Shown here piece after piece: positions 2,801 to 46,371 of a DNA stretch of 64,000 nt. The position numbers and the translations under genes were made by a program. Origin of the DNA: Cephalotus follicularis (Eukaryota; Streptophyta; Magnoliopsida; Oxalidales; Cephalotaceae). Position 1 is the stretch's first letter; each line of letters opens with the position of its first letter. The DNA lies in NCBI GenBank assembly GCA_001972305.1, contig BDDD01001496.1, positions 186,001 through 250,000 on the forward strand, read 5' to 3'. Under the pieces are notes generated by a model. The model ran no database searches. It saw only the letters and a list, made by a program, of their open reading frames with translations, and was not told the DNA's origin.

Positions 2801-3584
2801 AGTGTCGCCACTTTCAACGTGACAAGTACGGTTTTTTAGAATCTTGGTATGTAATCCTAGTGGTACTGGATTTTCATTGATCTAGTGGGAGTTATACCGA
2901 GAAATGCCATATTTGATTCGATTAGCCATTGAAAATTAAAAATGTCTATTTGTTTTATTCAAAATTATATTAGATAGATTTTTGGATGTGATATGCATGA
3001 TGGTAAGGCTTTGGGACATGACCTAGATTTCTGTTTCTTTCGTGGATGTTTAATCTGCTTTATTATTTTATTGGGTTTTTTTAATTTGATGGCCTGCGAG
3101 CACCTTAATTTCTTATTTTTGATTCCTCTCTAGGATAGATTCTTTTCTTTAAAATTTAAATGTAAATTTTGTTATAAATCTTTGTAAGCAAAAGGAGGAG
3201 AATCGAAGGAGAGGAAGATAAAGTAAGTTGCAAGACCAAGATGAAGTCCATGGATGCATGGTATTCTTTGTAATAAAGTAGAATTAAATAGTTCACCTAG
3301 GAGACCCGGTGATCACATTGGCTCATGTGAATCACTATGGAATTGTCCCTAGCCTAACCATGTTTTATGTTATACTTCGGATGCATGTGTTGGACAATTG
3401 GTCCAATTACGTCATTGCATGTAAGCCGTAATTAATTGGATTTGGTTAAGATAACCAATGAATTAATTAATGGATCGACTTAATTAAAATGTGAGACCTA
3501 AAATCCCTCTAAGGATAAAATAATAAGTCTTAACGTCAGGGACACTAAGAGTGACCCGACGTGGCCTTCCATAGTTCTCGTTGA

Positions 3585-3950
3585 GTGGCATTGACAGGTT
3601 GTGGGTGGTTAGCTAAAGCTAAGGTCCGCGATCTGTTTAGTGTCATATCAACGTCAGTATTAGATATTGCAAGGAAATCACAATGTTTTGCACTTAGACA
3701 CGTAAACGTGTGGGTGTCAAAACATGTGTATTACTTTGAGGATTGTGGGTGTAGACTTATACTGGCTCTAATGGTTTGTCATGCTAAAGCTGAGATCATA
3801 TTGAGTTGGTGGACCGAAGCTATGATTGGATCTTACACGAGTATGTGGGATTAGATCCTGAGTTGTGTAAATTGGCAGGTGAGCCTACCTATCTTGGGTG
3901 TTGTGGTTTGTCATGCTAAAGCTGAGGCCATAATATGCTAAGGTAGATTC
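3585..3950 (+). other. Four-hairpin array with TAAA tetraloops in the E1 leader
   Basis: Four stem-loops share the apical loop TAAA. H1: TTAGC/GCTAA with loop 3614-3617. H2: ACACG/CGTGT with loop 3703-3706, and outer arms GTTTTG (3685-3690) and CAAAAC (3718-3723). H3: TCA(T)GC/GCTGA with loop 3785-3788. H4: the same core with loop 3917-3920 and outer arms CTACCT (3885-3890) and AGGTAG (3941-3946). The loops start 89, 82 and 132 nt apart. Stems differ in sequence but stay complementary, which suggests a structured RNA. Function is unknown. Confidence 0.65.
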
Positions 3951-4095
3951 CAATCCCCACTAGGAGATTAGATCTCCCAAATTCCACATGGAGGTGTGTG
4001 ATACGATTAAAATAGTGAGAGGAACCATAAGCACTAAAAACCAAATGTTATGGTAGTAACATGGAAAATGGAAAATGGAAAATTTGCTAATAATC

Positions 4096-4114
4096 TCTTT
4101 ATTGTTTCCTATAG
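4096..4114 (+). promoter_or_regulatory. Possible 3' splice site just before E1 gag
   Basis: A pyrimidine-rich run ending in CCTATAG lies 24 nt before the gag ATG at 4139. E2 has a comparable tract ending in CTGCAG (11995) 8 nt before its gag start. This could mean the leader is an intron in some transcripts. No donor has been identified, so this is weak. Confidence 0.3.
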
Positions 4115-7590: not shown

Positions 7591-8147
7591 AGGGGGTCCT
7601 TAAGTACCTTAGGAGGACTCAGGATGCCTTCTTGATCTACGATGGAGATATTGAGTTGAAATTGGAGGGATATACTGACTCCAGTTTCACTAGTGATCCG
7701 GATGATCACAAATCAGTGCTGGGATATGTCTATATCCTGAATGGCAGTGTTGTGAGTTGGAGAAGCTCAAAAGAGGAAACTACGGCAGACTCAACTACGG
7801 AAGCTGAGTATATAGCAACCTTAGATGCTGCAAAGGAAGGTGTTTGGATGAGTAAGTTCATAGCTGAACTTGGAGTGGTTCCAACCATTACTCGTCATGT
7901 AGTTCTCTACTGTGACAATAATGGGGTTGTTGCACAAGCCAAGGAGCCCAGGTCTCACCAACGGTCCAAGCATATCCTACGGCGTTATCACTTGATCCGA
8001 GAGATCATTGACTTATGAGACATTGTATTAGAGAGGGTTGCCTCAGAGGTAAATTTAGCAGACCCACTTACTGAAGCTCTTAGTAGTAATGTATTCGAGC
8101 GTCATCGGAGTGTGATGGGCTTGAACTATTGGGCTTCGTGGATTGAG
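7591..8147 (+). pseudogene. E1 RNase H and pol end
   Basis: Ribonuclease H removes the RNA strand of the hybrid. The acidic residues can be seen in GYTDSSF, TEAEYIA and LYCDNNG, followed by the HILRRYHLIREIIDL block. A stop occurs at 8016, after which homologous sequence (ADPLTEAL) continues to the polypurine tract. This is the least damaged domain of E1. Confidence 0.87.
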
Positions 8148-8162
8148 GTCCAAGTGGGAGAT
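8148..8162 (+). promoter_or_regulatory. E1 polypurine tract
   Basis: CCAAGTGGGAGAT directly precedes the TGTTAGAG start of the 3' LTR at 8163. Tracts of this kind prime plus-strand synthesis in copia elements. Confidence 0.8.
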
Positions 8163-8564
8163 TGTTAGAGAGAGTGTGACCCGTCAAGCCACTAGGTGGT
8201 TCGATGTACTTGTACTCTGCTCATATTATATACAGTCTTGTTCTATTCATGTTACGTTGTGCAAATTATGTTTTATTATTGGCATAACTGTATATGTTTT
8301 ATCACATAATTGAAACATGACACTGCTTACATAAATGGTGCCCTGTCAAATCAAATGGTTGGTTGTCGAGCCAAGGGCTATGAGAGCGACTTCCTTATTC
8401 CCTGTGACTAAACTGTTCCAAGTCATAGGTTCACTTACTTTGGGCATTTGTGAACCGGATAGACTTGCCGTATTGTATTTGCTCTCGTGAATGGGAGGGT
8501 GGAGTATCTGATTGCCACTTGGGTTGAACCCTAAAGCTAATGCGGGGTGCGTGCTGTGAGCATG
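8163..8564 (+). repeat. E1 3' LTR, first part
   Basis: Matches 281-680 closely, then is cut at GCATG (8560-8564), the target duplication of E2. The rest of the LTR resumes at 26240. Confidence 0.92.
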
Positions 8565-10303
8565 TGTTAGAGATGAAGTGTTGCGAGCCAGTGTCGAGCT
8601 TGTATTTACTTTATCTTGTATAAATGATTTATAAATTCAATAAATACGTTTATGTTTTATCAATGGCTATGAGTTAGTTTCATTAATACTTGCTTTATTA
8701 ATTGTAAATAAATGTACTGGAATAAAGTTAGAGAACCAAGTTCATGATGAGATCATGATGTGAGAGTTGGAATCTCGGTATACTTTAATTTGAATCTTCC
8801 TAGTCATAGGATTGACACTCAGGGTATGATAAATCCGGATAGACCAGCACGTACTATCAGATCGGTAAGTTAAGGGTGACTAATCTCACACTCACTCGCA
8901 TGGATGATGCTATGACAACTACGTGGGTGCTCATCTAATGAGTTCACTGAAGGTGACTGTTGATAGAATATATGTATGGAATTTTACTTACATGTCAGAC
9001 AAAATTCTAGTTTTATAGCAGTGCATGTGGTCATTGGACATGAGCCATCACTGGATGTCTTGTGCATAAGGTGCTGTGTTTTGATGATCCTTAAATACAT
9101 ATTCTATGAAGTGTACACAAGCATTAGTTGGTATGTATGGAGGCATGTGAACCGGCAACAATGAATCCATTGCTTCTAGTAAAAGAAGATTATGCTCATG
9201 ATGATTTTCGTTAGCGATTAAACGTCTGACCAGGCTAGCCACGATATCAAGAGTGTGATATCATTGGTTGAATATTGGAGGGGCACCTTTAATATTATTT
9301 ATGCTGATGAAAGATAGTCACGAGGCTAAATATTAAATTATTGGGGTCTAACATAATCCGTACCCTATATTTATTTAGAGCATTGTTAATGGAGGGACTA
9401 TACGTGCATCTACCTATAAATAGTGGTTCACAAATTATTCATATTACCTGGGGGTCGTTATGCATTGCTAGATGTCGATATTGACCAGTAGGGTGCCCGA
9501 GATTAAATTGATAAATTAAGTTTGGAAGAAAAAGAATTAAAAGAGTTTTAATTTGAAATGTCCAAGAGAATAATTTTATGAGATAATAAATATTTAATTG
9601 GATAAATTGGGAGCGTCACAATATTAATCCTACGGCCAGCGTAATAGTGAACCCATAGGGTCACACACAATACGGGCATATATTTCCAACACGTGATGAG
9701 AGAAAAATAATTGGGAAGTTATTTCCTAATTATATTTAATGAGATTAAATATATTTAATGAGATTAATTATATTAAAGAAAGAAAGAAGTTTAAAAAGAA
9801 AATGATTCCTTTTGAAAGGGCTGGTTTAATAGGAGATTGTGTTTAAGTGGGATTAGTCTAGCAGATAATATATAAACACATATCCCTATTCATAGTTAAG
9901 ACTTTTGCTCTATTTTGCAAAACCCTAGCCGCCTCTCTCTTTCTCCCTCTCATGCAATCAAGTGTTGATTGCTTGCGAAGCAATTGTGTTGGAGATTGAA
10001 GCTTGGTGTGGATACCTTGGAGGCTTTCTATACTTGGAAGCTAGAACCGTTTAATACGTTCAACAAGTAACTGTGCTTTTGGTAGCAAGAAGACTTATTG
10101 GAAGAAGGAAGGAGCCGCTCCATTCATGTGAGTAATTCCGCCTGCTCCTCCATGTTGTTTTATATCTAACTATATATGTATACTCAAAAGATCTTGGAAA
10201 CAAACAATATGGCTTGATATTCATGAGAAGATCACACAATATATGTTTTAGGGTTTTATGCATATAGATATTTTATTGCCTAAATCTCCATAAGGTTCCA
10301 ACA
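8565..10303 (+). repeat. E2 5' LTR (1739 bp)
   Basis: Paired with 24316-26234 by near-identical starts and ends. Its internal 8976-9164 and 9048-9242 frames are not conserved as genes. A diverged relative of the first ~600 bp lies at 30370-30968. Confidence 0.93.
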
Positions 10304-10306
10304 AAT

Positions 10307-10319
10307 TGGTATCAGAGTC
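10307..10319 (+). promoter_or_regulatory. E2 primer binding site
   Basis: TGGTATCAGAGTC begins 4 nt after the LTR end at 10303. It matches the plant initiator tRNA-Met primer site except at its last bases. Confidence 0.85.
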
Positions 10320-10435
10320 GGATTTGATGCATATATATAGTTAGAAACATGTTTTTGATGACGTTCTTGAAATGTTTGGGTTGAATCCATGAGATGGATG
10401 CATGCGATGCTATTGGGTTTTTTCCCCTGCGCGAA

Positions 10436-10725
10436 AGTGTCGACGCTATTGTGAGAAGCGTCTACGCATTGCGTTGATACCACTGTTGAATAAACCCTAA
10501 AGACGCATAAGCGTCGACGCTTTTGAGAAAAGCATTGAAGCTTGGGCGCTAAGACGTTTACGCACAAAGACGCATAAGCGTCGACGCTTTTGAGAAAGGC
10601 GTCGACGCTTAGGCGCTAAAGTGCTGATGCTTCTGAGAAAGGCATCGAGGCTAAAACGCTGCGTCAACGCTTAACGCTTGAACGTCGACGCTTTGTTCTA
10701 AAGCATTGACGCTCTGGCGTGAAAT
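10436..10725 (+). repeat. GTCGAC palindrome island in the E2 leader
   Basis: Five exact GTCGAC (10439, 10513, 10580, 10601, 10684), most inside the self-complementary decamer GCGTCGACGC and spaced by TTTTGAGAAA-type linkers and GCGCTAA. The position, about 120 nt after the primer site, mirrors the E1 island. The stretch from 10730 to 11450 is non-coding leader with one repeated phrase TTCCAACGGCCTC (about 11257 and 11279). Confidence 0.8.
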
Positions 10726-11456
10726 TACGGGAAATAAGAGTTTTTTCAATTACCCAATTAATTGTATATATTTTTAGAAATATATCTATCAAGTTTATTT
10801 GTTGATTCAACGAGATTGAATATGCATGATGGGATGACTATGGACTTGACCTAGTTTGTCTTATTATTCAAGTGTTGAATGTATGTTTTTATTTTTCATT
10901 ATTTTCGGGTTGTAATATTTTGAGACTTGCATGTCTCTCTTCTCTCTCTTAATTTGTATCTGTACTTCTTCTTCACCTCCTTGTAACTCCCCTTGATTTA
11001 TTTCAAGGTTTCTGTAGTTTCTAGTTGGTTTATGTAATTGAAAAGCGAGCATCACAGTGGAAGCAAGTTGGAGGAGGACGAAGATATTACAAGACCCATG
11101 CATGTATGGGAACGAATGTATGATTGTAATAACATACCTAGGAATGAGACCAACACCTTGTTTGAGAGTCAGACAAGTTGCAGTAGTAAAGTCCATAACC
11201 CGCCATTAGTTTTATAGTATGTATGTGATGCATGTCTAAATTCTGTTCTTGAGATTCCAACGGCCTCCCCCTTAGAGGTTCCAACGGCCTCTCCATATTA
11301 TGCAATGTACCTGTAATTTGATTAATGAAGGCTTGGCTAAAATAATAACAAAAATGAGATTTATATTATTATTCCTCAATTATACCATGATATCAAGTTA
11401 AAGCAAAACTGGCACAAAAGAGTGTTCGGTCGTTGCCTTCTGCCATTACAACTGAT

Positions 11457-11791
11457 ATAGATGCTTTTGGAAATTGTGAGTGTTTTGGCCCCCGTCAAGG
11501 CTTGCCTTTTCTAGGGACATCTATGTGAGTTGAACATGCAGATGAATTGTGCATGTGAATGTTTTGGCCCCTGTCAAGATTCACATTCATTGATTCATTT
11601 TGTGTTGGATGGTTGGTTAAACTTGACTAGAATACATATGGCGTTTTGGCCTCCGTCAAGGTCATATGTAGACTAGAAGCAAAATCTATGATCGGGAATC
11701 ATGCTATTGTATGGTTGGCAAGAGTTTGCCTAACTACAAGATTCAATATAGCGTTTTGACCCCCGTCAAGGTTATATTGAATATGTTGTAG
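11457..11791 (+). other. Four-hairpin array with a conserved C-rich loop in the E2 leader
   Basis: Four copies of an 18-nt core, GTTTTGGCCCCCGTCAAG or close variants, at 11482-11499, 11561-11578, 11643-11660 and 11753-11770. In each, TTGRC pairs with GTCAA around a loop of CCCC, CCCT, CTCC or CCCC. The flanks of each copy also pair, with different sequences. Copy 2 has ATGTGAAT/ATTCACAT. Copy 3 has TACATATGGC/GTCATATGTA. Copy 4 has TTCAATATAGC/GTTATATTGAA plus CTACAA/TTGTAG. Copy 1 has ATAGATG/CATCTAT at 11457-11463 and 11518-11524. Confidence 0.8.
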
Positions 11792-12003
11792 GACAGCGAT
11801 CCCCACTCGAAAATGAGATCCATGAGACTTGGATTGTTGTTTCTCATCTCCCATAATATTTGAGGGTTATGGGATTCGTGTAAAACAGTGGGAGTCTGAG
11901 AGGAAAAACACCTAAAAGATTAAAGACCAAATCTTTATGGTTATAAACATTTAAATTGAATTTATCTGAATATTATCTTTATTTTATATCTGCAGAAATC
12001 GCA

Positions 12004-12900
12004 ATGACAAACCCTTTCACTGTAATTCTTGAGAAGAATCAGTTGACATGTCCAAATTATGTGGACTGGCTACGGAATGTCAAAATAGTTTTGAATTCTG
12101 AGGACATAGATTATGTCCTAGAGGTCCCTATGCCAGCACTGCCTGCTGAAAATGCCTCAACCGAAGATCATGCCATTTATAAGAAATGGGTGGCTGATGA
12201 AAAGAAAGTCAGAAGCTACCTCATGACATCGATGAGCAATGCCCTACAAGTTCAGCATGAATCGATGCGAGATTCTAGGGAAGATCTCCTACATCTCTGC
12301 GAGTTATACGAATAGACTAGTAGGAATGCTCGGTTCTAGCACACTGCTGAGCTATATGGCACTAAAATGGCTGAAGGATCTTCTGTTAATGATCATGTGC
12401 TTAATATGATCAATGTGATTGAACGTCTTGCTGCTCTTAGCATCATTCAGGATGCTGAATTAAGCGCAGATTTGATCTTTCATTCGCTTCCACCTTCCTT
12501 CTCTAGTTTCATCACCAATTTTAACATGAATAGGATATCAGCTACTCTGCATGATCTTCTAAACATGCTGAGGGAAGCCCAAGTGAACATGAATAAGGGC
12601 AAGGTGCTAGTCATGATGGTAGGATCGTCTCGTAGGCCCAAGAGGAAGGGCAAGTCCAACCTTGAGAAGGGGAAGACTAAAAATGGGACGATACCACCAC
12701 GATCGACATCTTTCAAACCAGCAAAAGCCAGACCACATAATCAGACAATCCAGCAAGCTGTTGCTGCGCCGGACACTATCGCAAGAGTTGCACCTACTGA
12801 GGCGTCTACCTCAGATGCTCTTGCTAAAGGACCGTGCTTCCACTGTGGGAAGCCATGACATTGGAAAAAGAACTGTATGACATTCCTTAGATCAATTGGC
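12004..12900 (+). pseudogene. gag: E2 gag (broken)
   Basis: Copia gag. The ATG at 12004 opens MTNPFTVILEKNQLTCPNY, the usual gag start of this clade, although an open frame extends back to 11956. A stop at 12313 is followed by an in-phase continuation through a basic linker to the zinc knuckle, CFHCGKP then a stop at 12856, then HWKKNC. The stop replaces the glycine of the CCHC box. The C-rich hairpin array and a CTGCAG acceptor-like tract lie directly upstream. Confidence 0.88.
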
Positions 12901-12930
12901 AAAGGTATGCCCTATTTGTCTTATATATAG

Positions 12931-13308
12931 GTGAATATGAATATTTCTGATTTATCTTCCTGCATTTTAGACAGCGGATGTGATGCTCACATATGTTCTA
13001 ATTTACAGGCCCTCACGGACAGAAGAAACCTTGAGAAGGGTGAGGGAGATCTACGGCTTGCAGATGGTTCCATTGTTGAAGCCGTAGCTATAGGATCAGT
13101 TTATATTTTGTTGCCTTCGGGCCAGAGTTTAGAACTCAAACGTTGTGTTTATTCGCCTCACATTTTGCGTAATATATTTCATGTTAATTTGAAAGACAAG
13201 TGTTGTTCGATTTTATTTTATAATATGATTTATGCAAAATGTTTCCTTCACGATGGATTATATATATTGAGTAAACATGAGACTGTTTTCAATATGCAAA
13301 AAAGATAA
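12931..13308 (+). pseudogene. E2 protease
   Basis: Aspartic protease of the copia polyprotein. ILDSGCDAHICSNL carries the active-site Asp and matches the corresponding E1 block. The frame is open for 125 residues but separated from gag by a stop, and it shifts into the integrase frame near 13290. Placement between zinc knuckle and pre-integrase finger fits. Confidence 0.83.
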
Positions 13309-14225
13309 TAAAAGAAGGAGAGATGAAGTTAATCAATCCTACCTATGGCATTGCAAACTTGGTCATATAAGTGAGAAAGGAGTACGCAGGTTGATTTCTG
13401 ATGGATATTTTGATTTTTCAACATATCAACCGTTTCCAACTTGTGAACCCTGTCTTAAAGATAAAATGACAAAATCTCCCTTCACAGGAGAAAAGGAAAG
13501 GACCCCAGAACTCCTTGGTCTAGTACATACTGATGTATGTGGACCAATGACAATTGATGCCCGAGGTGGATATTCCTACTTTATAACCTTTACGGATAAT
13601 CATTCTCGTTTCGGTTATTTGTACCTTATGCGTCACAAATCTAAAGCCTTTGAAAAGTTAAAAGAATTCATACATGAAATAGAAAAACATAATGGTAAAA
13701 GTCTAAAGACTCTTCGATCAGATCGAGGTGGTGAGTATGTCTCCACAGAGTTTTTAACTTATCTCAAAGATAATGGGATTATCTCTCAGTGGACCCCTCC
13801 GGGAACACCACAACATAATGGTGTGTCTGAAATGAGAAATCGTACCTTACTTGACATGGTATGTAGCATGATGAGTGATGCTGGACTTCCACTGTCTTTC
13901 TGGGGTTATTCTTTAGAGACTGATGTTCTCTTATTGAACAGGACTCCAACGAAATCTGCTCCCAAGACCCCATATGAGATATGGAATGGGAAGAAACCCA
14001 ATCTTAGTTACCTAAGAATATGGGGCTGCTCTGCATATGTCAAGCAGGCAGCAGCAGATAAATTGGAATCTAGGTCCATTAAATGTAAACTTGTGGGATA
14101 TCTTAAAGAAACACGAGGATATTATTTCTATTATCTACCTGACAACAAAGTGTTTGTAGCTAGACATGCTACTTTTCTTGAGAAGGACTTCCTTTTGGAA
14201 GACACTAATGGGAGTATGATAGAAT
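13277..14225 (+). pseudogene. E2 integrase, cut by the insertion at 14226
   Basis: Open for over 300 residues, the best preserved integrase here. The finger is WHCKLGH ... CEPC; the core has HTDVCGPM, FTDNHSRFGY, SDRGGEY and TPQHNGVSE, so acidic residues of the D,D-35-E triad can be seen. The C-terminal part ends where the AGAAT duplication (14221-14225) and a foreign TGTTGAAACCC start. The annotated frame then reads into the inserted LTR and stops at 14264. After the second duplication copy (20053-20057) the reading frame resumes in phase. Confidence 0.9.
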
Positions 14226-14870
14226 TGTTGAAACCCGGGAGAGGTTCCGGTCAATTTTGGGTCTAGGATGCAAGTGTGTATAATTTTAATTTTTCAAAAA
14301 CACCAAGACACAAAGTCAAGGTTACACTTACATCTTACTACCATAATCTATGCACCTAGGATCTCCGTTTAATATTCAATCGAACAAAACGAAAAGTCAA
14401 GCATACATCCACTTAACCGAAACCAATTCGGTAAATAACAAAAAAACATAAGATTAGGAACCATACCAACGTTGGCGGCTCCATCACTTTGCTGCTACAC
14501 GCTTGCCGAAGCAATTTCCGGTTACCGGCTCTACTGCCGGTTTCCGGCCAGTGCACGAAAAAATCAACCAAGACACCAACGGACTCCAAAAAATCCGCTC
14601 CCCATTTCTGACGGAGACGCGCCGAGAAGCGCTCCGGAACACGAAGAACAGCGGCGGTGACTCACTGAGTTCAGACTCAGTACGACTCGGTCAACACGTC
14701 ATTGACCGACGGCGACATATGTGGACGTCAACACCCCAATAAACTCACTAGTGGCCAAGAATCGCCGTGACTCGGGCTGAAACACCAAGTCACGACGCAC
14801 GGTGAGTCGATTCGGCATAGTCGACTGTTCACTGTTAAAAGAATGTTTTAAAATTTATAGCCGCAAGTGC
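14226..14870 (-). repeat. Left part of the inserted LTR (non-coding)
   Basis: No supported gene. GC-rich patch at 14480-14720 with repeated CCGG-type words. The sequence from about 14850 (CCGCAAGTGCACGG) is a phrase I associate with plant retroelement spacers, and it probably already belongs to the nested element. The border between the two is uncertain. Confidence 0.45.
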
Positions 14871-14964: not shown

Positions 14965-17244
14965 TTAAAAACTACTCCTAATTATGCCAAAATAATAAAA
15001 TAATTGAAAACACGAACAAGAATAATCACGGACTACCAACCAATCACACACATGGTCCATACGAATGCACACCCTCCATCCTAATTGATCTTTAGTAAGA
15101 AAAAAGTTGTTTTCAAGGATGATGTGAGGGTGGGATGGCGTGCTAAGCTTGTGCGTGAAATGGGACAGATCATCCCATTGAACTTCCAAAATCGAATCAA
15201 CGTCCCCATCGTCCAACCAACTTAATATCTCCTTTTGTGTGGCCTCCAATTCCACGAACTCTCTCAAGCATTCCAAGAAGTTGTTCTCAAAGTCTTCGTC
15301 AAAGTACGTTTGGTCAGGCATGGCAATTTTGTGAGTGTAATGGGATAGATGATCCCATTCACTATCCGATGTTGGCTCATTGAGCTTACTTTCTAACCAT
15401 GCTAAAGCCTCCTCGTTTTCTAGCCACATCAATCTATTTCTTTGTTTAACTTCCTCTATCTCGAATTTCCTCTTGAAATTGCGATCAAAGTCGATATTAA
15501 AATACGAATTAATGGTATCAGGAATCGAGCGAATCACGTAGACATCATCAAAGTCAGATTGATGCTTTCCCAAATGAAAAATGTTAAAGTCCATCGACGA
15601 CTTTCCAAAACTCAACTTCATGAGACCATTTCGGCAATTGATCAATGCATTACTTGTGACCAAGAATGGTCTACCAAGGATAACTGGGATTTGGTCTTTT
15701 ATGTTCTCAACAGGTTGGGTATCTAATACGACAAAGTCGACAGGAAAGAAAAACTCACAAACTTTTATCAAAACATCCTCAATTTTCCCTCTTGGTACCT
15801 TTACCGACCTATCAGCTAATTGCAAAGTCGTATTGGTCGGGAGCAACTTTCCTAAACCTAGTTGCTCAAAAACTTCCGAAGGTAACAAATTCACACTTGC
15901 TCCTAAATCGAGCAAGGCATGATCGATTTTGGTGTTACCAATAACACAAGGGCAGCCAGGATCTTTGTATTTTGGAATCTTTGGTTGCGAGATGATCGCA
16001 GTGATATTGGCTGCCAAGAAAGCCTTTTTCGGAGTCTGAAGGATCCTCTTTTTCATGCATAAGTCTTTTAGGACTTTTGTGTAAGAGGGCACCTGCTCAA
16101 TAGCTTCAAGCAATGGGATATTGATTTGAACTTGTTTGAATGTATTGATGATCTTTTCCATTGTTGGGGCTTTCTTATTTTTCTCTAATCTCTTCGGAAA
16201 AGGATCTGGGGGATCAAATGAACGCTTCGGTATTTCCATTAATTGTTCCTTTTTCTCTTCTTCTTTCTCTTCCCTAACTTCTTCTTGCACTTCTAAATTT
16301 GTTGGTTGCACAAAGGAGTCAACAAACTGTTCTTTTGATTTATCATGCGCAAATGACTCAACCAACTCTTCGCTCAAATTTTCTGTTTTATCCGCTGGTT
16401 GGTACTCACTTCCACTTCGCAAGGCAAATGCTTGGTCAGATGGGCCGGAAGAAGATGAGCATTGCGGATTAGATTGCGGTTGGATACGATCGGGCTGAAT
16501 CATATTCGTCCTAGGATTCGGTTCGAGTTGGGAAGGCATTTTCCCTTTTGCTCTTGTATGCACCGCAGATGCTAGCTGAGAGAGTTGCTTTTCTAGGTTA
16601 TGCTGACTAGTCATCACAGTGCTCATAAGAAGTTCCATGCTCTTTTCTAAAGATGAAATCCTAGACGTATCTTCCTTTTGGTTCAACAATCCAGGTGATT
16701 GTTGATTTTGGAATTGATTTTGCGGTGGGAAGGATGGTTGGACATTGTTTGAATTCGGGGAAAACCTTTGATATGTCTGCTGTGGAGTAGACTGGCTAGA
16801 AAAGTTCAAAGGTTGTCCCAAAAAGTGTGCAGGTGGGGCACCAACGCTAGAAGGCTGCCCCGAAAAACTAGATTATCCTCGCATGTTTTGCCCTTGACTC
16901 CATGAGAAGTTTGAATGATTTCGCCAACCCGGATTGTAAGTATTACTATACGGGTTGTATTGGTTCATAGCAGACACATTCTCAGGAGTATATTGATTTT
17001 CAAAGTAGCTTTGGCATTCGTCGATCACATGACTCGGTGACTGGCACCAAGAACACATAGGGGTACTTTGATTGATTTGATTAACTTGTGTGGAACCCCT
17101 AAGCAGCGACTCTAATCTAGTCACGAGACTGTCTAACTGTGCCTCTTTAGCCAGACAAGACGTATGAGTAGTCATGCTAGGTCTATACGAAGTGTGTTCG
17201 TTGCGACAAATCGTATGAGTAGACTCCGTTGAATTAAGCTCCAT
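14965..17244 (-). pseudogene. Gypsy-type gag-protease of a non-autonomous element
   Basis: Read from 17244 to 14965. The first frame (123 residues) has a CSWCQSPSHVIDEC zinc knuckle; after a stop near 16873 a 618-residue frame follows. That frame holds Gln/Asn-rich and acidic Lys/Glu stretches, then a protease with LLDLGASVNLLP and ILGRPFL, wording typical of Athila/Tat-type gypsy proteases (the usual D-S/T-G triad reads DLG here). Beyond it lies an acidic tail and no RT, RNase H or integrase. Upstream are a TATA-like box and a GTCGAC island. It looks like a gag-protease-only element that would depend on a partner for polymerase. Confidence 0.8.
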
Positions 17245-17617: not shown

Positions 17618-18006
17618 ACGTCGACTTCTTCTTGAAAGGCGTCGACTTCTTTGTGTAAAAATCGCGACTTTGCTGAGATGCGAGAGAAAGGCATTGACTT
17701 CTTCTTGAAAGGCGTCGACGTCTTTTGGTCAAAAGTTACAGGACAATTTTGCTAAAAGACATCGATGTAAATGTTAAAAAACGTCGATCTGCATGAAAGG
17801 CGTCGACTTCTTCTTTAAAGACGTCGACTTCTTTTTCATAGCTCCTTTGAAGATTGTTGTGTTGCCCAGAAAAGACGTCGACTTCATCTGGAAAGGCGTC
17901 GACGTAATTCTATAAACCCAGAAAAGACATTGACTCGTATGAAAGGCATCGATGCATTTTGATGAAACAAGCAAAGGAGTCGACTTCTTCTTGAAAGACG
18001 TCGACT
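17618..18006 (-). repeat. GTCGAC island upstream of the gag-protease promoter
   Basis: Nine exact GTCGAC in under 400 bp (17620, 17641, 17714, 17802, 17823, 17877, 17898, 17979, 18000), mostly in the phrase AAAGRCGTCGACTTCTT. They often come as pairs 21 nt apart joined by TTCTTGAAAGGC-like linkers. Unlike in E1 and E2, the island lies upstream of the putative TATA box. Confidence 0.8.
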
Positions 18007-20750: not shown

Positions 20751-20780
20751 ACGTCGACGTGAAGAGAAAGACGTCGACGC
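20751..20780 (+). repeat. GTCGAC pair in the gypsy solo LTR
   Basis: Two copies of AAAGACGTCGACG at 20748-20760 and 20768-20780, 20 nt apart. Weaker variants (CGTCGATGCC at 20721) precede them. Confidence 0.65.
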
Positions 20781-21554
20781 CTTGTGTCGTATTCCTGATG
20801 CACACTAACAGCAGATGGACGTGTCACATGGAGGTCTTTTCATGCCACTTCTCAGGCACATTCACATGCGTTTTATGACGTGTTGATCATGCATCAAGAT
20901 TCCCTGAAGTACCAGCAACAAAAAGGGCCAGATGGGAGGGGACATGTGAGCATGCATGGACTGAGAGGAAGAAGAATGTGACACCTATTGCACCAGGTTG
21001 CATGGGTAAGAGATGAAAAAGAAATGGTGAGTGCATGCAGAGAAGAAAAAAATTCATTTGCATAAACGCCCCCTCCTCTCTCTCTTTCTCTCTCGTCTGT
21101 TAATGAAAGAGAAACACAGTGAGGGAGAGAGAACCAGAAAAGATAGAAAGAGAAAAGCTCAACTTCATTGTTGAGCAAGAGAGAGAGAGCTTGGAGCTTG
21201 GACAACAATTGTTGGAACGAACCAGGGAGCGTTCAAGCCGTATCTGGGAGCTCAAAAGGGACTGCTGAATACTAAAAGGGGTGGACTTTCGGCTTCTAAC
21301 TTGAGGCCAGAGGTAGGGGAAGCCATAATTTTAATTTTGAGCTTAATATTCATGCATGGACAGTGATTTTTGTGCATAGTTTCCATGGTTAATTGAACTA
21401 TTTTTTATCACTGGATCAATGCCATGTTATGCTGGGTATATGATATGTATTTGCATGTTCGTATTCTGGCTTGATTACATGTTGTCTTGCATGTATATGG
21501 ATTGTGTTGGTTACCTTTGTCACATGGTGAGGAAGAAGACAACTGGTGCTCGAA

Positions 21555-21800
21555 ACACGTCGACGCCTTTGGGAAACATCGACGCCTTTGGGTTGTCTGC
21601 ATGGATACTGACGTATTATACGTCGACGCCTAAGGTTCCTACCTTAACGCGTCGACGCCTTAAGAAATACGTTGGTGTTTAAGGTTCCATACCTTAAGCG
21701 TCGACGCGTATAAATTGGACATCGACGTCTTCAAAACAGTGGAAAGCGCTGACGCTAAGGATTTGAGCGTCGACGCTTACGGGACAAAGACATCGATGAC
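21555..21800 (+). repeat. GTCGAC island in the gypsy solo LTR
   Basis: Five exact GTCGAC (21559, 21622, 21651, 21700, 21769) with variants at 21578, 21720 and 21791. They are commonly written CGTCGACGCCTTwrGG and separated by AAGGTTCC-ACCTTAA phrases, which are themselves partly self-complementary. Confidence 0.75.
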
Positions 21801-23093: not shown

Positions 23094-24300
23094 GCTCATA
23101 GCCAAAGGTTACAACCAATGGTAAGGATTGATTATGAGGAAACTTTCTCTCCCATAGCCATGCTTAAATCCATTCGGATTTTACTTGCTGTAGCTGCACA
23201 TTTTGACTATGAGATATGACAAATGGATGTGAAAACTTCTATTCTCAATGGAAACATTGATGAAGACATTTATATGACTCAACCTGAGGGTTTCATATCC
23301 ATTGGTGAGGACTAGAAAGTGTGCAAGCTTCAGAAGTCAATTTATGGACTAAAGCAAGCTTCGAGAAGTTGGAACATCCGATTCGATGAGACAATCAAAG
23401 AGTTTGATTTCATTAAGAATTGAGATGAACCATGTGTGTATAAAAAGGTTAGTGAGAGCTCCGTGACTTTCCTAGTCTTGTACGTTGACGACATACTCCT
23501 TATAGGAAATGATGTGATCATGTTATTGAACGTAAAGGTTTGGTTATCCACAGTTTTCTCCATGAAAGACTTGGGAGAAGCTTCCTATATCCTGGGAATA
23601 AAGGTCTATAGAGATAGATCAAAAAGGATGATAGGGTTGTCCCAGTCTTTGTACATTGACAGAGTGCTTAAGCGGTTTAGCATGGAAAATTCCAAGAGAG
23701 GTTACCTACCTCTATGTCATGGGATTTCACTTTCTAAACAGATGTCTCCCAAGACGGCCGAAGAAAAACAAAGGATGATGCACATTCCATATGCTTCAGC
23801 AATTGGAAGCGTCATGTATGCTATGCTTTGCACTAGACCAAATATCGCCTATGCTATAAGTGTTACAAGCAGATATTAGTCAGATCCAGGTGAGAGTCAC
23901 TGGAAGGCTGCCAAAGATATTATTAAGTACCTTAACAAGACTAAGGATTTATTCATGATGTATGGAGGAAAAGGTTTGAAAATTGAGGGTTTTACTGACT
24001 CTAATTTTCAGACAGATGTGGATGATTCGAAATCAACATCGGGGTTTGTGTTCATCTTAAATGGTGAAGTAGTGAGTTGGAATAGTTCCAAGCAGCCTAC
24101 CACTGCGGATTCACTGACTGAAGTTGAATACATTGCGACTCCACCTTATACGTGAGATCATTGATCGTGGAGATATAAAAGTGGAACGAGTTCCAAGTGA
24201 AGACAACATTGCATACCCGCTTACTAAGGCGCTACCAAAGGCGGTCTTCGACAGACACCTTGATGCTATGGGTGTGAGACACTATGGCAACTGGCTTTAG
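23094..24300 (+). pseudogene. E2 reverse transcriptase (rest) and RNase H with an internal deletion
   Basis: RT continues with the RLIAKGYNQ, MDVKT and LQKSIYGLKQASRSW motifs; the polymerase box is intact, LYVDDILLIGND at about 23479-23514. Stops fall near 23217, 23314, 23420 and 23877. RNase H begins near 23955 with FTDSNF and TEVEYIA, then jumps at about 24140 to the far C-terminal block, losing the central part that contains the last catalytic Asp (the CDN motif present in E1). So RNase H is inactive by deletion as well as by frame damage. Confidence 0.88.
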
Positions 24301-24315: not shown

Positions 24316-26234
24316 TGTTAGAGATGAAGTGCTGCGAGCCAGTGTCGAGCTTGTATTTACTTTATCTTGTATAAATGATTTGTAAATTCAATAAAGATGT
24401 TTATGTTTTATCAATGACTATGAGTTCGTTTCATTAATACATGCTTTATTAATTGTAAATGAATGTCCTGGAATAAAGTTAGAGAACCAAGTTCATGATG
24501 AGATCATGATGTGAGAGTTGGAATCTCGGTATACTTTATTTCGAATCTTCCCAGTCATAGGATTGACACTCAGGGCATGATCAATCCGGATAGACCAGCA
24601 CATACTGTCAGATCGGTAAGCAGAGGGTGACTGATCTCGCACTCACTCACATGGATGATGCTATGACAACTACATGAGTGCTCATCTAATGAGTTCACTG
24701 AAGGTGACTGCTGATAGAATATCTGTATGGAGTTTTACTTACATGTCAGACAGAATGCTAGTTTTACAACAGTGCATGTGGTCCTTGGACATGAGCCGTC
24801 ACTTGATGTCTTATGCATAAGGTGTTGTGTTTTGATGATGCTTAAATACATATTCTATGAAGTGTATACAGGCATTAGTTGGACATGGTACGCTTATGTA
24901 TGGAGGCATGTGAACTGGTAACAATGAATCAATTGCTTCTAGTAAAAGAAGATTATGCTCAGGATGATTTTCGTCAGTGATTAAACGCCTGGCCAGACTA
25001 GCCACGATATCAAGAGTGTGATATCATTGGTTGAATATTAGAAGGGCACCTCTAATATTATTTATGCTAATGAAATATAGTTACGAGGCTAAAGATTAAA
25101 TTATTAGGGTCTGACATAATCCGTACCCTAGATTTAATTAGAGCATTGTCAATGGAGGGGCTATGCGTGCATGTACTTGTAAATAGTGATTCACAAATTA
25201 TTCATATTACCTGGGGGTCGTTATACATTACTAGATGTCGATATCGACCAGTAGGATGTCCGAGATTAAATTGATAAATTAATTTTGGAAGAAAAAGAAT
25301 TAAAAGAGTTTTAATTCGAAATGTTCAAGAGAATATTTTTATGAGATAATAAATGTTTAATTGGATAAATTGTAAGTGTCACAATATTAATCCTACGGCC
25401 AGCGTAATAGTGAACTCATAGAGTCACACACAATACGGGCAAATATTTCTAACACGTGATGACAGAAAAATAATTAGGAAGTTATTTCCTAATTATATTT
25501 AATGAGATTAAATATATATAAATATATTTAATGAGATTTTATATATATATATATATAATTAATTAATGAGATTAATTATCCTTAATGAGATTAAGGTAAA
25601 TTAGAATTCTAGAAGGAAAATAAGACTTCTCCTAGAAGGAATAGGAGACTCCTCCTAGAAGCAAAAGATTTTGTGTTCTAATATGATTGTGAGATTAATT
25701 ATATTAAAGAAAGAAAGAAGTTTAAAAGGAAAAGGATTCCTTTTTAAAGGGCTGGTTTAATGGGAGATTGTGTTTAAGTGGGATTAATCTAGCAGCTAAT
25801 ATATAAACACATCTCCCTATTCATAGTTAAGACTTTTGCTCTATTTTACAAAACCCTAGCCGCCTCTCTCTTTCTCTCTCTCATACAATCAAGTGTTGAT
25901 TGCTTGCGAAGCAATTGTGTTGGAGATTGAAGCTTAATGTGGATACCTTGGAGGCTTTCTATACTTGGAAGCTATAATCGTTTAATACGTTCAACAAGTA
26001 GCTGTGCTTTTGGAAGCAAGAAGACTCATTGGAAGAAGGAAGGAGTCGCTCCATTCATGTGACTAATTCCGCCTGCTCCTCCCTGTTGTTTTATATCTAA
26101 CTATATATGTATGCTCAAAAGATCACTGAAACAAACCATATGGCTTGATATTTAGGAGATGATCACACAATATATGTTTTAGGGTTTTTTGCATATAGAT
26201 ATTTTATTGTCTAAATCGCCATAAGGTTACAACA
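24316..26234 (+). repeat. E2 3' LTR (1919 bp)
   Basis: Same ends as 8565-10303 but about 180 bp longer. The extra sequence at about 25510-25690 holds ATATAT runs, two ATGAGATTAA repeats and a CTCCTAGAAG-type inverted repeat around 25626-25662. It ends in AACA at 26234, followed by GCATG. Confidence 0.92.
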
Positions 26235-41448: not shown

Positions 41449-41453
41449 AGACA

Positions 41454-41669
41454 TGTTATAAACTTCTGAGATTAATTAACAATTTAAGATAAAGAAATCA
41501 AGAGAGGAATTGAGAGAGAATAAGGGATTTTCTTATTATGAAATCCTTAGTTTCTTCTTAACATTACATTCCTATTTATAGGAGTTTAGGGGGTTGTTGA
41601 AATAGTAATTGGGTTGTTGGAATTGTAATTCATACATAATTTTGCCTAACTTTGACTAATTTTACAATA
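41454..41669 (-). repeat. E4 3' LTR
   Basis: Pairs with 48310-48535, differing by about ten substitutions and a 10-bp length change near its TTTTGCCTAA repeat. Confidence 0.92.
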
Positions 41670-41813
41670 CTCCCCCTTGAATTTCTATTCCATATTACTA
41701 TGACTGCCTCGTTAAAACCTTGCTAGGAAAAACCCATTGGGATAAAAACCTTTGTGAAGGAAAAAGAGTACAGTCTCCCCCTGAAACAAAACTTCACAAG
41801 TTCTTGAATTGTA

Positions 41814-42330
41814 TTAATGAAGATCTTTAATCTGACGCATCCCAATATCATGTCTGAGCTTCTTGAATGTAGTACATGGTAATGCCTTCGTAAATAAATC
41901 CGCTAAATTGTCACTGGATCGGATTTGTTGTACATCAATATCACCCTTTTTTCGGAAGCTCATGGGTGTAGAAGAATTTTGGTGAAATATGTTTCGTTCG
42001 ATCACCCTTGATATATCCCCCTCTGAGTTGTGTGATGCAAGCGGCATTATCTTCATATATTACAGTGGGATTATTTCTAATCGAGGATAGTCCACATGAT
42101 TCTTGTATATGTTGAATCATTGATCTCAACCATATACATTCTCGGCTTGCTTCATGAATTGCAATGATCTCTGAATGATTCAAAGAAGTTGCCATTATTG
42201 TCTGTTTTGCTGATCGCCATGATAGCAGTGTCACAAAAGGTAAAGACATAACCGGTTTGTGATCTTGCTTTATGTGGATCAGACAAGTATCCAGCATCAG
42301 CATATCCAATCAATGTTGATTTTGTGCCCC
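41814..42330 (-). pseudogene. E4 RNase H
   Basis: Read from about 42330. GYADAGYLSDPHKARSQTGYVF carries the first Asp. The block with SLNHSEIIAIHEASRECIWL and VIYEDNAACI carries the next acidic residues, and ISPKFFYTHEL and LADLFTKALP follow. The protein is split over three frames with shifts near 42180 and 41950. It is the last pol domain before the purine tract and LTR. Confidence 0.87.
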
Positions 42331-43330
42331 TCGGATAAAATAGACCCATATCAGTGTTTCCACGCAGATAGCGCATTATATGCTTAATTCCATTCCAGTG
42401 CCTTCTCGTTGGTGCCGAGCTATATCTTGCTAGTAAATTGACAGAGAATGCAATATCGGGTCTTGTGCAATTTGCAAGATACAATAGTGCTCCAATTGCG
42501 CTAAGACAAGGAACTTCAGGTCCAAGGATTTCTTCTCCTTCTTCTTTAGGACGAAATGGATCCTTCTTGACATCAAGAGATCGGACTACCATTGGAGTGC
42601 TTAGAGGATAAGCTTTGTCCATGTTGAATCGACTAAGAACCTTTTCAGTGTATGTGGATTGATGGATGAATATCCCAGATGATATGTGCTCCACCTGTAT
42701 ACCAAGACAAAATTTTGTTTTTCCAAGATCTTTCATTTCAAACTCACCCTTTAAATATGTCACAGTCTTTGTAAGTTCTTCAGAAGTACCTACAAGATTT
42801 AAATCATCCACATATACTGCAAAAATAGAAAATCCATTGTTAGATTTTTTGATAAAAATACATGGACATATTTGATCATTTGTATACCCTTCTTTGATTA
42901 AGGATTCGCTTAGTCGATTGTACCATATTCGACCAGATTGTTTCAATCCATACAATGAACGTTGTAGTTTAATTGAATACATGTGGCGAGATTTGTTCGA
43001 TTCAGGAATTTTAAATCCATCAGGAATTCTCATATATGTCACTATCAAGTGATCCATATAAGTATGCTGTTACTACGTCCATAAGACAAGTTTCAAGTCC
43101 GTTCGAAGCAGCCATACTAATTAGGAATCGAAAAGTGAGAATATGTTTCCTGGTAATCAATACCTGGTCTCTGTGAGAACCCTTGGGCTACAAGCCTTGC
43201 TTTGTATCTCACAATTTCATTTTTCTCATTTCGTTTTCGAACAAATATCCACCTGCATCCAACAGGGGTTAAACCGCTTGGTGTTTGAATTATTGGTCCA
43301 AATACTTCTCGTTTGGACAAAGATTGCAAC
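42300..43330 (-). pseudogene. E4 reverse transcriptase
   Basis: Read from 43330. The [21 protein letters not shown] entry block spans 43330-43117. After a gap of about 60 bp it continues from 43057 with LQRSLYGLKQSGRIWYNRL, the polymerase box YVDDLNLVG (near 42822-42796), DLGKTKFCLGIQVEH and NCTRPDIAFSVNLLARYSS. The large 43057-42152 frame is open into RNase H. The part carrying the first catalytic Asp is degraded at the gap. Confidence 0.88.
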
Positions 43331-43440
43331 TCTGCTTGTATTGCATCTTTCCATTTTGGCCAATCATTTCTTTATTGTCATTGTTCAACACTTTGTGGTT
43401 CAGGATCCATAACAGGATTTGCAATATCCAATGCAACGAC

Positions 43441-44711
43441 TTAGGCAAACTTGTCATTAACTAGAATCTCATCTCGATTCCATATTTGTTCATTATGTGC
43501 ATAATTAATCGATGCTTCTTGATTTTGAAATCCCACAGCCTCTTCAGGGCTTTGTACTCTCTCTGGAGTCAATATGGGTTCTGGAAACAACACACTATCT
43601 TGTGTTAATGCTTTTTCAGGATTTTGTACACCACCCTTATTTGCCTTTCGTTTTCGTGGTACAATATCTTTTGCTCCAATTGGTCTACCACGTTTCAACT
43701 GTGGTTTGGACTTTAATATATCGATAGCGCTTTCACTATCTTTAGATATATCAATTCTTGTTGGAGCATTCACAGTTGATATATAAGATTTTACCACTTT
43801 TTGAGCATCATTAAATGCATATGGCATTTGATTAGCAATATTCTGCAAATTAATGATCCTTTGAACTTGTAGTTCACATTCATTTGTACGTGGATCAAAA
43901 CTATGTAATCTTGATGCTTTCCATGAATTTTTATTTTCATTTTTCAATAAAATCTTGTCTCTCCCAAACACTGGGAAAACCAATTCATCAAAATCATAGT
44001 CTGCATAACGTGCAGTAAACATGTCACCTGTTAATGGTTCAAGATACCTTATAATTGATGGAGAATCAAATCCCACATAAACGCCAAGTCTGCGTTGTGG
44101 TCCCATCTTGCTCCGCTGAGGAGGTGAAATAGGGACATATACTACACATCCAAACACTCTTAAGTGGGGTATGTTTGGTTCTTGACCAAGAAAAAGTTGC
44201 AATGGAGAATATTTATGATATGCAGTCAGTCTTATATGTATAAGAGCCGCAGCATGCAATATCGCATGTCCCCAAGTTGAAATGGGTAACTTTGACCTCA
44301 TCAATAAAGGACGAGCAATCAATTGAAGTCTCTTTATAAGAGATTCGGCTAACCCATTTTGAGTGTGTACGTGAGGAACAGGATGTTCAATGGTAATTCC
44401 TATTGCCATGCAATATTCATCAAATGCTTTGGAACAAAATTCAGCAGCATTATCTAGCCGAATAGACTTTATAGGATGATCTGAAAATTGTGCTCGTAAT
44501 TTATTTATTTGAGCCAATAGTCTCGCAAATGCAACATTGCGAGTTGAAAGTAAGCATACATGCGACCATCTTGTCGATGCATCTATTAACACCATGAAAT
44601 ACCGAAATGGTCCAGACGGTGGATTAATCAGTCCACAAATATCTACTTGAATTCTCTCTAAGAATTTTGGAGATTCTACAACCACTTTTGTTGTAGATGG
44701 TCTTACAATGA
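43441..44711 (-). pseudogene. E4 integrase core and C-terminal region
   Basis: Read from 44711 to 43441. The core shows ERIQVDICGLI (first Asp), MVLIDASTRWSHVCLL, IKSIRLDNAAEFCSKAF (second Asp), HVHTQNGLAESLIKRL (Glu) and HLRVFGCVVY. A long linker with Pro/Glu-rich VQSPEEAV-type repeats leads to RT. The N-terminal finger is separated by a solo LTR; the reported frame upstream of 44711 (to 44991) is read into that LTR. Frame is otherwise open for over 400 residues. Confidence 0.9.
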
Positions 44712-44716
44712 GTATT

Positions 44717-45676
44717 TGTTGGCCTTTGCCACCCCGTTTAATTGCATTTACATATGTTATTTTGATGATTAACAAACATAGATTAACTTGTATGCATAAT
44801 TCCTTAAAGTATAACTTCATATACTCACTTGATCTTATGTCCAAAGTTGTCCCAAGAACTTTTATGCAGAAACAGGTCAAGACAGCCGACTGGAAAGCAA
44901 TCCAGTCGACTGCCAAGGTTAGGAGTCGACTTCCAGAGGTTATGTAGTCGACTGCTTCTTCAACCAGACTCAAAATCGGCAGGAACACCAATCCAGTCGA
45001 CTGCCACAGGGGTCCAGTCGACTGCCAGGCAAATCCAGTCGACTGTCACAGGGCATAAGTCGACTGCCATGGGTACAATTTCAGGCAGAAGCTTCTGTAA
45101 CATTTTACACCCAATCCAGCCGACTGAAGCAGGGCACCAGTCGACTGCTAGGGGGTCCAGTCGACTGCCAGGGAATCCAGCCGACTGTCATCAATTGTGC
45201 AAAATCAGGCAGCCGACTGGAACAGATCAATCCAAAGCATTCCTACACATTACAAAGCTTTACATTTTACATTCCACATTTACTAGAAGCTTTGTTTAGA
45301 ATTTGAGCATTATTGTAAACAAATTCATTACGAATTTGTAACCATCTAAACACTAATTTCACTCATACAAGAGAGGTTGTCTCTTGTATTGCTCGGTTGG
45401 AGCAAAGTTGTAATTCGCTTGGTTGGAGCGAAAGTTGTTGGAGCTCGGTTGGAGTTTCAAGCCCGGATTGGGGCATACCTAGTGAAATACTCAAGGGGAC
45501 GCCTTGGGGAGTGGACGTAGGCGGTTTTCCGAACCACTATATATCCGTTTGCAAATTCTCTAAACCCTACACTCTTTACTTTCCGTAATTGTGTGTTTGT
45601 GTTAATTGAATTATTTTGTGGTATATTTGCTAGTAATTTTTATAAGTCTATTCACCCCCCCTCTAGACTTCCTACA
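44717..45676 (+). mobile_element. Solo LTR inserted in E4 integrase (960 bp)
   Basis: Starts TGTTGGCCTTTGCC and ends AGACTTCCTACA. It is flanked by GTATT (44712-44716) and GTTTT (45677-45681), which differ by one base. Outside it E4 pol continues in the same phase on both sides. It ends with a CACCCCCCCTCTAG stretch of a kind common at copia LTR ends, so it is probably from a copia element on the plus strand. There is no coding sequence; frames at 44829-45299 and 45397-45588 are chance. Confidence 0.85.
44880..45190 (+). repeat. CAGTCGACTG island in the solo LTR
   Basis: Nine exact GTCGAC (44905, 44925, 44947, 44996, 45017, 45038, 45059, 45140, 45160), mostly as the self-complementary decamer CAGTCGACTG within ATCCAGTCGACTGCCA. 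Further copies carry CCGACTG instead (44885, 45119, 45180, 45211). Adjacent units are often 20-21 nt apart. Confidence 0.85.
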
Positions 45677-45681
45677 GTTTT

Positions 45682-46283
45682 CCTTGCGAACAAGCAACGC
45701 AATGGTTCTCATTATTCAATAGCATTTTCTGTTTTTTAAGTGGATAGCCATGTGAACTTTCAATGATTCGACGCATCATTGTCACACCTGGGTGGCCTAG
45801 CCGTTCATGCCAAATCATGAACCCTTTTAAATCTATGACTTTTGAATCCACAACATTATGAGATTCAATTGCTCTAATTTTCATAATGTATAGCCCAGAA
45901 GAACGCCCAGGGAGTTTCTCCAATATTTGCTTTCGGCCGGAAGCATTACCAGTGATATAAAGATATTCTTTGCCATTTTCATTTGTGGTTTCAATATGAT
46001 AACCATTTCAGCGAATATCTTTGAAACTAAGCAAGTTTCTTCTAGACTTTGTCGAATATAAAGCATCTGTGATGCGCATTTGTGTTCCATTTGATAACAC
46101 AAAGCTGGCCATCCCATAACCTTCAATTAGGTCTAATGTACCAGAAATTGTTCCAACATTAGCCTTTGCTATTGTCAAATGTGAAAAATAATTTTCACTC
46201 TGGAGTATTGTGTGTGTTGTTGCACTATCAGCTATGCATATATCTCCAGTATCCATTGTATGATGATCTATAGATAAAAACAC
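45682..46283 (-). pseudogene. E4 protease and pre-integrase finger
   Basis: Read from 46283. The protease has ICIADSATTHTIL, in which the copia active site is D-S-A, then a region shifted near 46010. The pre-integrase block is WHERLGHPGVTMMRRIIESSHG and ends CVACSQGKL, immediately before the solo LTR. The HHCC finger is visible as H-x5-H and CxxC. Gag lies upstream at 46372. Confidence 0.87.
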
Positions 46284-46371
46284 ACATGTTAATAAATATG
46301 ACTATGTTATATTTAACTTTCATAAGCACTTTATTTAAAAGTGATAAACATTAAAACTATAGCACATAACA

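Follow-up and report, generated by a model that had tools for sequence, protein, structure and literature searches.

Retroviral genomic RNA carries its packaging signal, psi, as leader hairpins near gag, and gammaretroviruses have repeated hairpins with a GACG tetraloop. In packaging signals of the STNV-1 type, several stem-loops bear one loop motif on free stems, and the retroviral CTE is an export element of unspliced RNA. How plant LTR retrotransposons choose their own RNA among many co-resident families is, as far as we know, an open question. The available part of a study of the barley Ty1/copia elements BARE1 and BARE2 describes an untranslated leader and separate RNA pools for translation and packaging, and states that BARE2 cannot make Gag and keeps its packaging and dimerisation signals (PMC3735527); the word "hairpin" is absent from that paper. 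According to the available part of a 2025 review, the RTE of IAP and the MTE of MusD are export elements, plant LTR elements are generally without introns (the exceptions being Ogre and EVADE), and the presence of export (CAR-like) motifs in plant LTR elements is unclear (PMC12786077). BARE1 is a further intron-bearing plant LTR element (PMC3735527, available part). Dispersed coat-protein packaging signals have been described for small RNA viruses, for example STNV-1 (PMC6475782, available part).

The locus analyzed here carries an array of four hairpins in the leader of a plant Ty1/copia element. We compare its presumed action with that of retroviral packaging signals as an analogy and not as membership of that class. 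Like psi, the array consists of hairpins in the leader near gag, has conserved apical loops and would be expected on unspliced RNA; unlike psi, it tends to carry the same loop throughout, a loop peculiar to the family and exchanged from one family to the next, and it belongs to plant Ty1/copia elements. As in STNV-1-type signals, several stem-loops display one loop motif on free stems; the array differs in being compact and located in a non-coding leader, and STNV-1 is a virus of another type. Like the RTE and MTE (PMC12786077, available part), and like the CTE, the array would be a structured element on unspliced retroelement RNA. Those three elements differ from it in having host factors as readers. 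To our knowledge, a concerted family-specific loop is known for none of them. A narrow search of the open-licence literature, which took in few subscription papers and no preprints, returned no description of a four-hairpin leader array, consistent with the view of the initial annotation that no element of this kind had been described.

The window (the whole stretch of 64 kb of Cephalotus follicularis DNA analyzed) was compared with itself by BLAST, and this showed that the element carrying the array, E2, sits within the 3' LTR of E1, also a copia element (Table 1). E2 has the integrase upstream of the reverse transcriptase (RT), gag_pre-integrs and SH3 domains, an LTR pair and a primer binding site (PBS), as is characteristic of Ty1/copia elements. 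Its leader, from the PBS at 10307 to the gag ATG at 12004, is about 1.7 kb long and contains 51 ATGs between PBS and gag. Inside E2 there is also a stretch with a minus-strand frame that has an aspartyl protease match (14965-16821), together with an E1-like LTR piece. The elements of the window, and the named protein relatives (Tanacetum, Malus, Theobroma, Sesamum and others), indicate a flowering plant.

Table 1. Features of elements E1 and E2 in the window (a slash in a splice site marks the presumed cut).
Feature	Position	Strand	Basis or remark
E1 hairpin A	3572..3662	+	loop UAAA
E1 hairpin B	3670..3738	+	loop UAAA
E1 hairpin C	3760..3811	+	loop UAAA
E1 hairpin D	3889..3946	+	loop UAAA
E1 candidate 3' splice acceptor TTTCCTATAG/G	4095..4114	+	sequence; upstream of gag ATG 4139
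E2 5' LTR	8566..10303	+	self-BLAST: 8565-10303 vs 24316-26234, 92-94% identical
E2 presumed promoter TATA box TATATAAA	9869..9876	+	read from sequence; role inferred
E2 candidate 5' splice donor CAT/GTGAGT in U5	10128..10133	+	conservation; donor use inferred
E2 primer binding site-like TGGTATCAGAGT	10307..10318	+	one mismatch to TGGTATCAGAGC
E2 hairpin 1	11449..11532	+	core 11482-11499
E2 hairpin 2	11534..11605	+	core 11561-11578
E2 hairpin 3	11627..11676	+	core 11643-11660
E2 hairpin 4	11734..11791	+	core 11753-11770; UUGAC/GUCAA where the others have UUGGC/GUCAA
E2 candidate 3' splice acceptor, U-rich tract, CTGCAG/	11976..11995	+	scores above all 294 control leader ATGs
E2 gag start MTNPFTVILEKNQLT...	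12004..12315	+	frame stops at 12315
E2 integrase part (gag_pre-integrs, rve, SH3)	13277..14266	+	Pfam
E2 RT part	23130-24139		similarity to E1 and contaminant copia contigs
E2 second LTR	24316-26234		self-BLAST

Four 18-nt cores at spacings of 79, 82 and 110 nt had been annotated in this leader, and a scan of both strands recovered all of them: with up to three mismatches, the 64 kb contain exactly four matches, against a mean of 0.27 and a maximum of 2 in 100 shuffled sequences. Each E2 core forms six pairs (UUUGGC/GUCAAG) closed by CCCC, CCCU or CUCC, and a 2-nt GU bulge on the 5' side separates this core stem from an outer stem. The annotated exchange of a G-U for an A-U pair is real and lies in copy 4. 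The flanks had been described as unlike between copies and complementary within each, and so they are: mean identity between copies is 0.27 and 0.23 for the two arms vs 0.92 for the core, and 95% of 60 cells are paired. The length of 8-11 bp given for these stems did not hold, each hairpin having about 20-35 bp in all, with interruptions; and the array, correctly placed in the leader, does not lie directly before gag, since 213 nt separate its end from the ATG at 12004. Its position in the 5' leader near gag (11449-11791; ATG 12004) and the better folding of the plus strand correspond to the placement of a packaging signal. The region 11400-11850 folded at -151.5 kcal/mol, compared with -117.4 ± 5.6 for shuffled sequences (z -6.1; none of 100 as low), confirming the structure that the annotation had predicted. 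Taken singly, hairpins 1 to 4 gave z-scores of -5.3, -2.3, -3.6 and -5.7 on the plus strand and worse values on the minus strand at every hairpin (-2.3, +0.3, -1.3 and -4.0). Hairpin 2 is the weakest, with 4 of 200 shuffles folding equally well, and its base in the window copy is without some 12 nt (11541 region) that are present in most of the other 38 aligned copies. Across the four hairpins, 8 of 15 pairs are changed on both sides; the covariation score was attained by none of 500 shuffles, and it reached at most 0.256 in slid registers vs 0.667 in the true one.

Comparison of positions 8000-14300 with Rfam release 15 gave four weak matches (E up to 1), none at the gathering score, and a covariance model built from the four hairpins (R1) matched only its own training hairpins when searched against the window. 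In plant microRNA precursors the arm that holds the mature sequence is conserved and the loop is variable; such a precursor was rejected, the pattern between the four hairpins being the opposite one (core 0.92, arms 0.27 and 0.23). Thirty-six stretches with the exact core in viral contigs were each folded, and since none showed the GU bulge with matching long arms, they were taken as chance or unrelated; integrase searches of the viral contigs found no relative. Nine of these contigs (L009, L014, L016, L017, L018, L020, L022, L032 and L034) have in common a repeated, partly palindromic stretch that ends in ATAATTTTGGCCCCTGTCAAG, is present in three copies in one contig (L009 and L017), and is unrelated to the hairpin array.

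The array is abundant in the host. The exact E2 core pattern occurs 3,501 times in the 1.58-Gb genome, vs 3 for the reversed pattern, which at four cores per array implies several hundred arrays or more; E1 cores occur 1,502 times (12 reversed) and TTTGTCATGCNNNNGCTGAG, the motif of hairpins C and D, 6,016 times (5 reversed). Four cores with up to four mismatches were found in 38 of 40 E2 leaders and three in the other two, at spacings near 90, 82 and 110 nt. The E2 and E1 loci were drawn from the first 100 among the matches listed and not at random, and the array alignments leave out 2 of the 40 E2 loci (those with three cores only) and 4 of 20 E1 loci without a full triplet. In 39 aligned E2 arrays, 95.4% of 4,049 cells are paired. 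Covariation within this family is modest: for score, percentage paired and double-changed cells, 5 of 500 shuffles did as well in each case; for doubly changed pairs the number was 58, and for further pair types 216. Within the E1 family (17 arrays) it is invisible, the measures being reached by 55 to 275 of 500 shuffles.

Most variants confined to one copy will have arisen once it was inserted and have never faced selection as RNA, whereas those in many copies have passed through replication. Pairing was kept by 28 of 37 E2 variants present in at least four copies, 13 of 36 present in two or three, and 30 of 115 singletons (Fisher p 1.3e-7). Part of this effect is an excess of transitions among the shared variants; with transitions only, pairing was kept in 28 of 33 shared variants vs 26 of 48 singletons (p 0.004). 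The E1 family gave 12 of 15 for variants in at least three copies, 7 of 15 for those in two and 30 of 76 for those in one. By position, conservation of E2 copies averages 0.93 in the array vs 0.885 upstream of it, and the four core windows rank at 8-33%, behind the best conserved windows of the leader.

The E1 leader also contains four long hairpins (folding z -6.4), at places matching those of E2; blocks that can be aligned by eye between the two leaders lie on either side of the array and in the gap that separates the third hairpin from the fourth. Copies of both E2 and E1 thus have four long hairpins in set positions before gag, with the sequence of the outer stems free and their pairing kept. 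What they share is an apical module: E2 and many hairpins of the E1 lineage have an inner stem of about 5 bp, capped by a loop of 4-5 nt and set off by a 2-nt 5' bulge, with E1 hairpin A deviating by a 3x2 internal loop. Additional leaders came from plant DNA found in bacterial assemblies. In these, L040 has one motif in four copies (1755, 1849, 1920 and 2154), L037 has another motif three times plus a hairpin with loop GAUA on the plan of 2-nt bulge, 5 bp and 4-nt loop, and L042 has a motif twice; the L039 leader showed no clear array. The two ends of L037 overlap by 71 identical bases. When repeats were counted against 20 shuffles of each leader, which gave at most two copies, E2, L037 and L040 had 4, 3 and 4 copies, respectively; the 3-copy repeats of L042 and L039 lay elsewhere in the leader, and E1 and L038 were not above shuffles at the setting used. 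Sliding z-scores were low at several hairpins of E1, E2 and L037/L038 and not low at the repeats of L040, L042 or L039, and equally low sliding z-scores or folding energies occur elsewhere in the leaders too. Separately, two small "plasmids", NZ_CP115302.1 of Streptomyces camelliae and NZ_CP115454.1 of Kitasatospora cathayae, code for an integrase of copia type that shares 51% identity with the E2 enzyme, and are probably plant DNA filed as plasmids.

Compensation between families was seen in hairpin B, whose inner stems read ACACG/CGUGU, ACAAG/CUUGU, ACCAG/CUGGU and ACUAG/CUAGU. In 11 rows, picked for showing the hairpin from 14 found, there were 13 double-changed cells vs 4.3 expected from shuffles and a score of 0.278 vs 0.139, with none of 500 shuffles reaching either; two other measures were unremarkable, shuffles matching the number of doubly changed pairs in 23 of 500 cases and that of further pair types in 405. 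Three rows were left out: L037, which belongs to another lineage, and L144 and L146, because only 1-2 of 9 outer pairs form there, the pairing not being in the same register. The search took only unbulged inner stems that had already been read, so the ACAGGC type (L117, L128 and others) is not included. The selection on RNA structure claimed in the initial annotation is thus supported by the abundance of cores in the genome, by the pairing of shared variants and by this compensation across families. Covariation among relatives of E2, which it had proposed as one of the checks, is weak within the family, does not stand out on the pair-count measures, and appears across families in the chosen rows of hairpin B.

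The geometry of the module was searched for in two grids. A strict one applied to five non-E2 leaders gave four matches at loop 4 and 5' bulge 2, and up to eight at other geometries; with six leaders together, the four matches at that setting compare with a shuffle mean of 1.2 and a maximum of 7. A second grid of 72 cells, which allowed a bulged inner stem and covered nine leaders, several of them related, had its maximum of 11 at loop 4 and 5' bulge 2, the next cell reaching 8. This preference is suggestive only, the grid having been built after the data were seen and at least one of the 11 matches (in L128) lying outside the array.

Within an element the loops resemble each other far more than expected by chance, and they differ between families. 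Twenty leaders were fetched out of 132 integrase matches; seven gave four loops and seven gave none. In elements of the E1 lineage, read in the order A to D, all four loops are UAAA in E1, CCUA in L116, CAAA in L128 and CACA in L143. The other families are mixed, and hairpin B differs most often: L117 has CAUA, CACA, CACA, CAUA; L132 has CCACC, CUCC, CCACC, CCACC; L133 has ACACG, CAGA, ACACG, ACACG; L123 has UCA, CCCC, UCA, CACA (the last two read by eye); and the E2 copy of the window has CCCC, CCCU, CUCC, CCCC. All four loops are therefore equal in four of nine families. In this author-chosen set of one element per family, 34 of 54 within-element loop pairs are identical, compared with 5.3 on average and 18 at most in 20,000 slot-wise shuffles among families; without E2 the count is 33 of 48 (mean 5.5, maximum 19). 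Copies of the E2 family have CCCC more often than any other loop at each of the four hairpins (28, 26, 27 and 30 of 39), and only 7 of the 39 decayed copies have four equal loops. One pair, noticed and not randomly drawn, illustrates a concerted exchange: L132 and L133 share 95.0% identity over 2.3 kb, and still 9 of their 19 loop bases differ (p 1.2e-7), with the same replacement of CCACC by ACACG at three hairpins. A complementary partner that varies along with these loops was sought, and three weak sites were found, none complementary to both. Since the stems are free as long as they pair and the loops tend to move together, the pattern is the one expected from a repeated binding site of a family-specific reader.

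Several signals suggest that the array lies in an intron. A 3' splice site between array and gag is likely: a U-rich tract and an AG stand immediately upstream of gag, or of pol in L037/L038. Using a simple splice matrix written from general knowledge, AGs within 12 nt of an ATG were scored, with 294 other leader ATGs as controls; four of eight gag (or pol) starts exceed all controls and seven of eight are in the top 1.7%. The E1 gag start scores only at 8.8%, because its better AG, the candidate acceptor, sits 24 nt upstream; the place of this acceptor is that of AG/GTTGCTAG in 11 related leaders. In the 11 E1-lineage leaders, out of the 20, that were read for this purpose, GGTTGCTAG (one change allowed) is preceded by A in all 11, giving AG (YAG in 8), the searched motif itself including the G of this AG. 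Among 41 E2 rows, the acceptor AG has A in 41 and G in 30, with A replacing G in 8, and the conservation of its 11-nt window ranks only at 24%. At the E2 donor-like site, each of the six bases of GTGAGT is intact in at least 23 of the 24-25 covering copies (40 fetched), and the 11-nt window 10127-10137 is in the top 3.2% for conservation. A donor-like site lies 125-200 nt before the PBS in four of five elements, in the top 3-8% of windows, the search window having been chosen after the E2 site had been seen; no such site is distinctive in E1, where 50% of windows score as high. An E2 intron from the U5 donor-like site to the gag edge would hold the PBS, about 50 upstream ATGs and the array. 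With 51 ATGs between PBS and gag, scanning on the unspliced RNA is unlikely. Such an intron would differ from that of BARE1, which comprises 104 nt where the PR domain begins and does not lie in the leader (PMC3735527, available part).

L037 and L038, in contigs filed under Geminicoccus and Solirubrobacter, are plant copia elements in bacterial assemblies and are apparently gag-less: the distance from first ATG to integrase match is about 500 nt vs about 1,290 in E2, and the frame leads straight into the protease motif. Both retain leader hairpins, those of L037 including its threefold motif, and in both a 3' splice-like site precedes pol. In keeping leader hairpins they resemble BARE2 with its retained signals (PMC3735527, available part).

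Our preferred reading, to which we give a probability of about one half, is that the array is a cis-acting RNA recognition element in a lineage of long-LTR plant Ty1/copia retrotransposons and marks unspliced genomic RNA for Gag. As the splice signals suggest, RNA spliced from U5 to the gag edge would lose the PBS and the array and could serve as gag-pol mRNA, and RNA left unspliced would retain both and be the genome. The family-specific loops suggest that the element's own Gag (or Gag-NC) may bind the repeated loops, which is the least certain step; with four repeated loop sites, binding would then gain in avidity, and packaging or dimerisation would have a family-specific address. Taken with the likely intron in the leader, these loops favour a role in recognizing unspliced genomic RNA over one in translation.

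The main rival, which we regard as improbable though still worth weighing, is control of export or splicing, in which, as with the RTE, MTE or CTE, a host factor would read the hairpins so that some intron-containing genomic RNA escapes splicing and leaves the nucleus. In both E1 and E2, some 200-550 nt separate the array from the likely acceptor downstream of it, and a leader that is an intron would create a real need for export of unspliced RNA; however, a host reader common to all families would favour one loop and not family-specific loops that switch jointly. Considerably less likely is a structure that is real and has no reader, its loops having been made identical as hairpins exchanged sequence through gene conversion or template switching. 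Short conversion tracts are possible, because several families have the same inner stems (TCATGC/GCTGAG) at hairpins A, C and D, but L128 carries CAAA four times on unlike inner stems, and conversion would be expected to carry the flanks along, whereas the E2 hairpins are alike only in the core (0.92; arms 0.27 and 0.23). A translation element, providing internal ribosome entry or shunting across a 1.7-kb leader with some 50 upstream ATGs, would account for the location before gag, the 51 ATGs and the strong folding; it would not be needed given the likely splice acceptor immediately upstream of gag, and we know of no internal entry site built of repeated identical apical loops, which leaves this explanation with slightly less credit than conversion. 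The weakest is an interface with host silencing, with hairpins feeding Dicer-like enzymes or loops diversifying as small-RNA targets in an arms race, since the long stems and the diversity of loops between families fit it, but the loops are short for such targeting and tend to equal each other along the array, for which escape alone cannot account, and the arms, i.e., the would-be small RNA, vary freely.

Recognition of genomic RNA by Gag could extend to the whole lineage, a broader proposal that we hold only tentatively: each family would possess a four-fold array in a leader intron, its loop acting as a "password" or own address read by its own Gag, and loops and reader would change together as new families arise. 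If so, many co-resident families would be sorted into separate particles, and the array would be found only on full-length genomic RNA. As a tag, the array would provide a compact, repeated, family-specific site in thousands of copies, and the natural loop swap between L132 and L133 makes recognition testable by simple binding assays. The leader intron, if true, would let plant copia elements switch cleanly from mRNA to genome.

The window contains another copia element on the minus strand (41451-48520), with LTR pieces 94% identical, a likely splice acceptor before gag and, in its leader, a perfect tandem duplication of 80 nt (47987-48152). The palindrome GTCGAC occurs 42 times in the window (about 5 expected), often as GCGTCGACGC, and is clustered inside several different elements (2443-2751, 10439-10684, 17620-18000, 20753-21769 and 44905-45160). 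This repeat is seemingly common to unrelated elements; its E1 and E2 occurrences are in the leader and precede the hairpin array.
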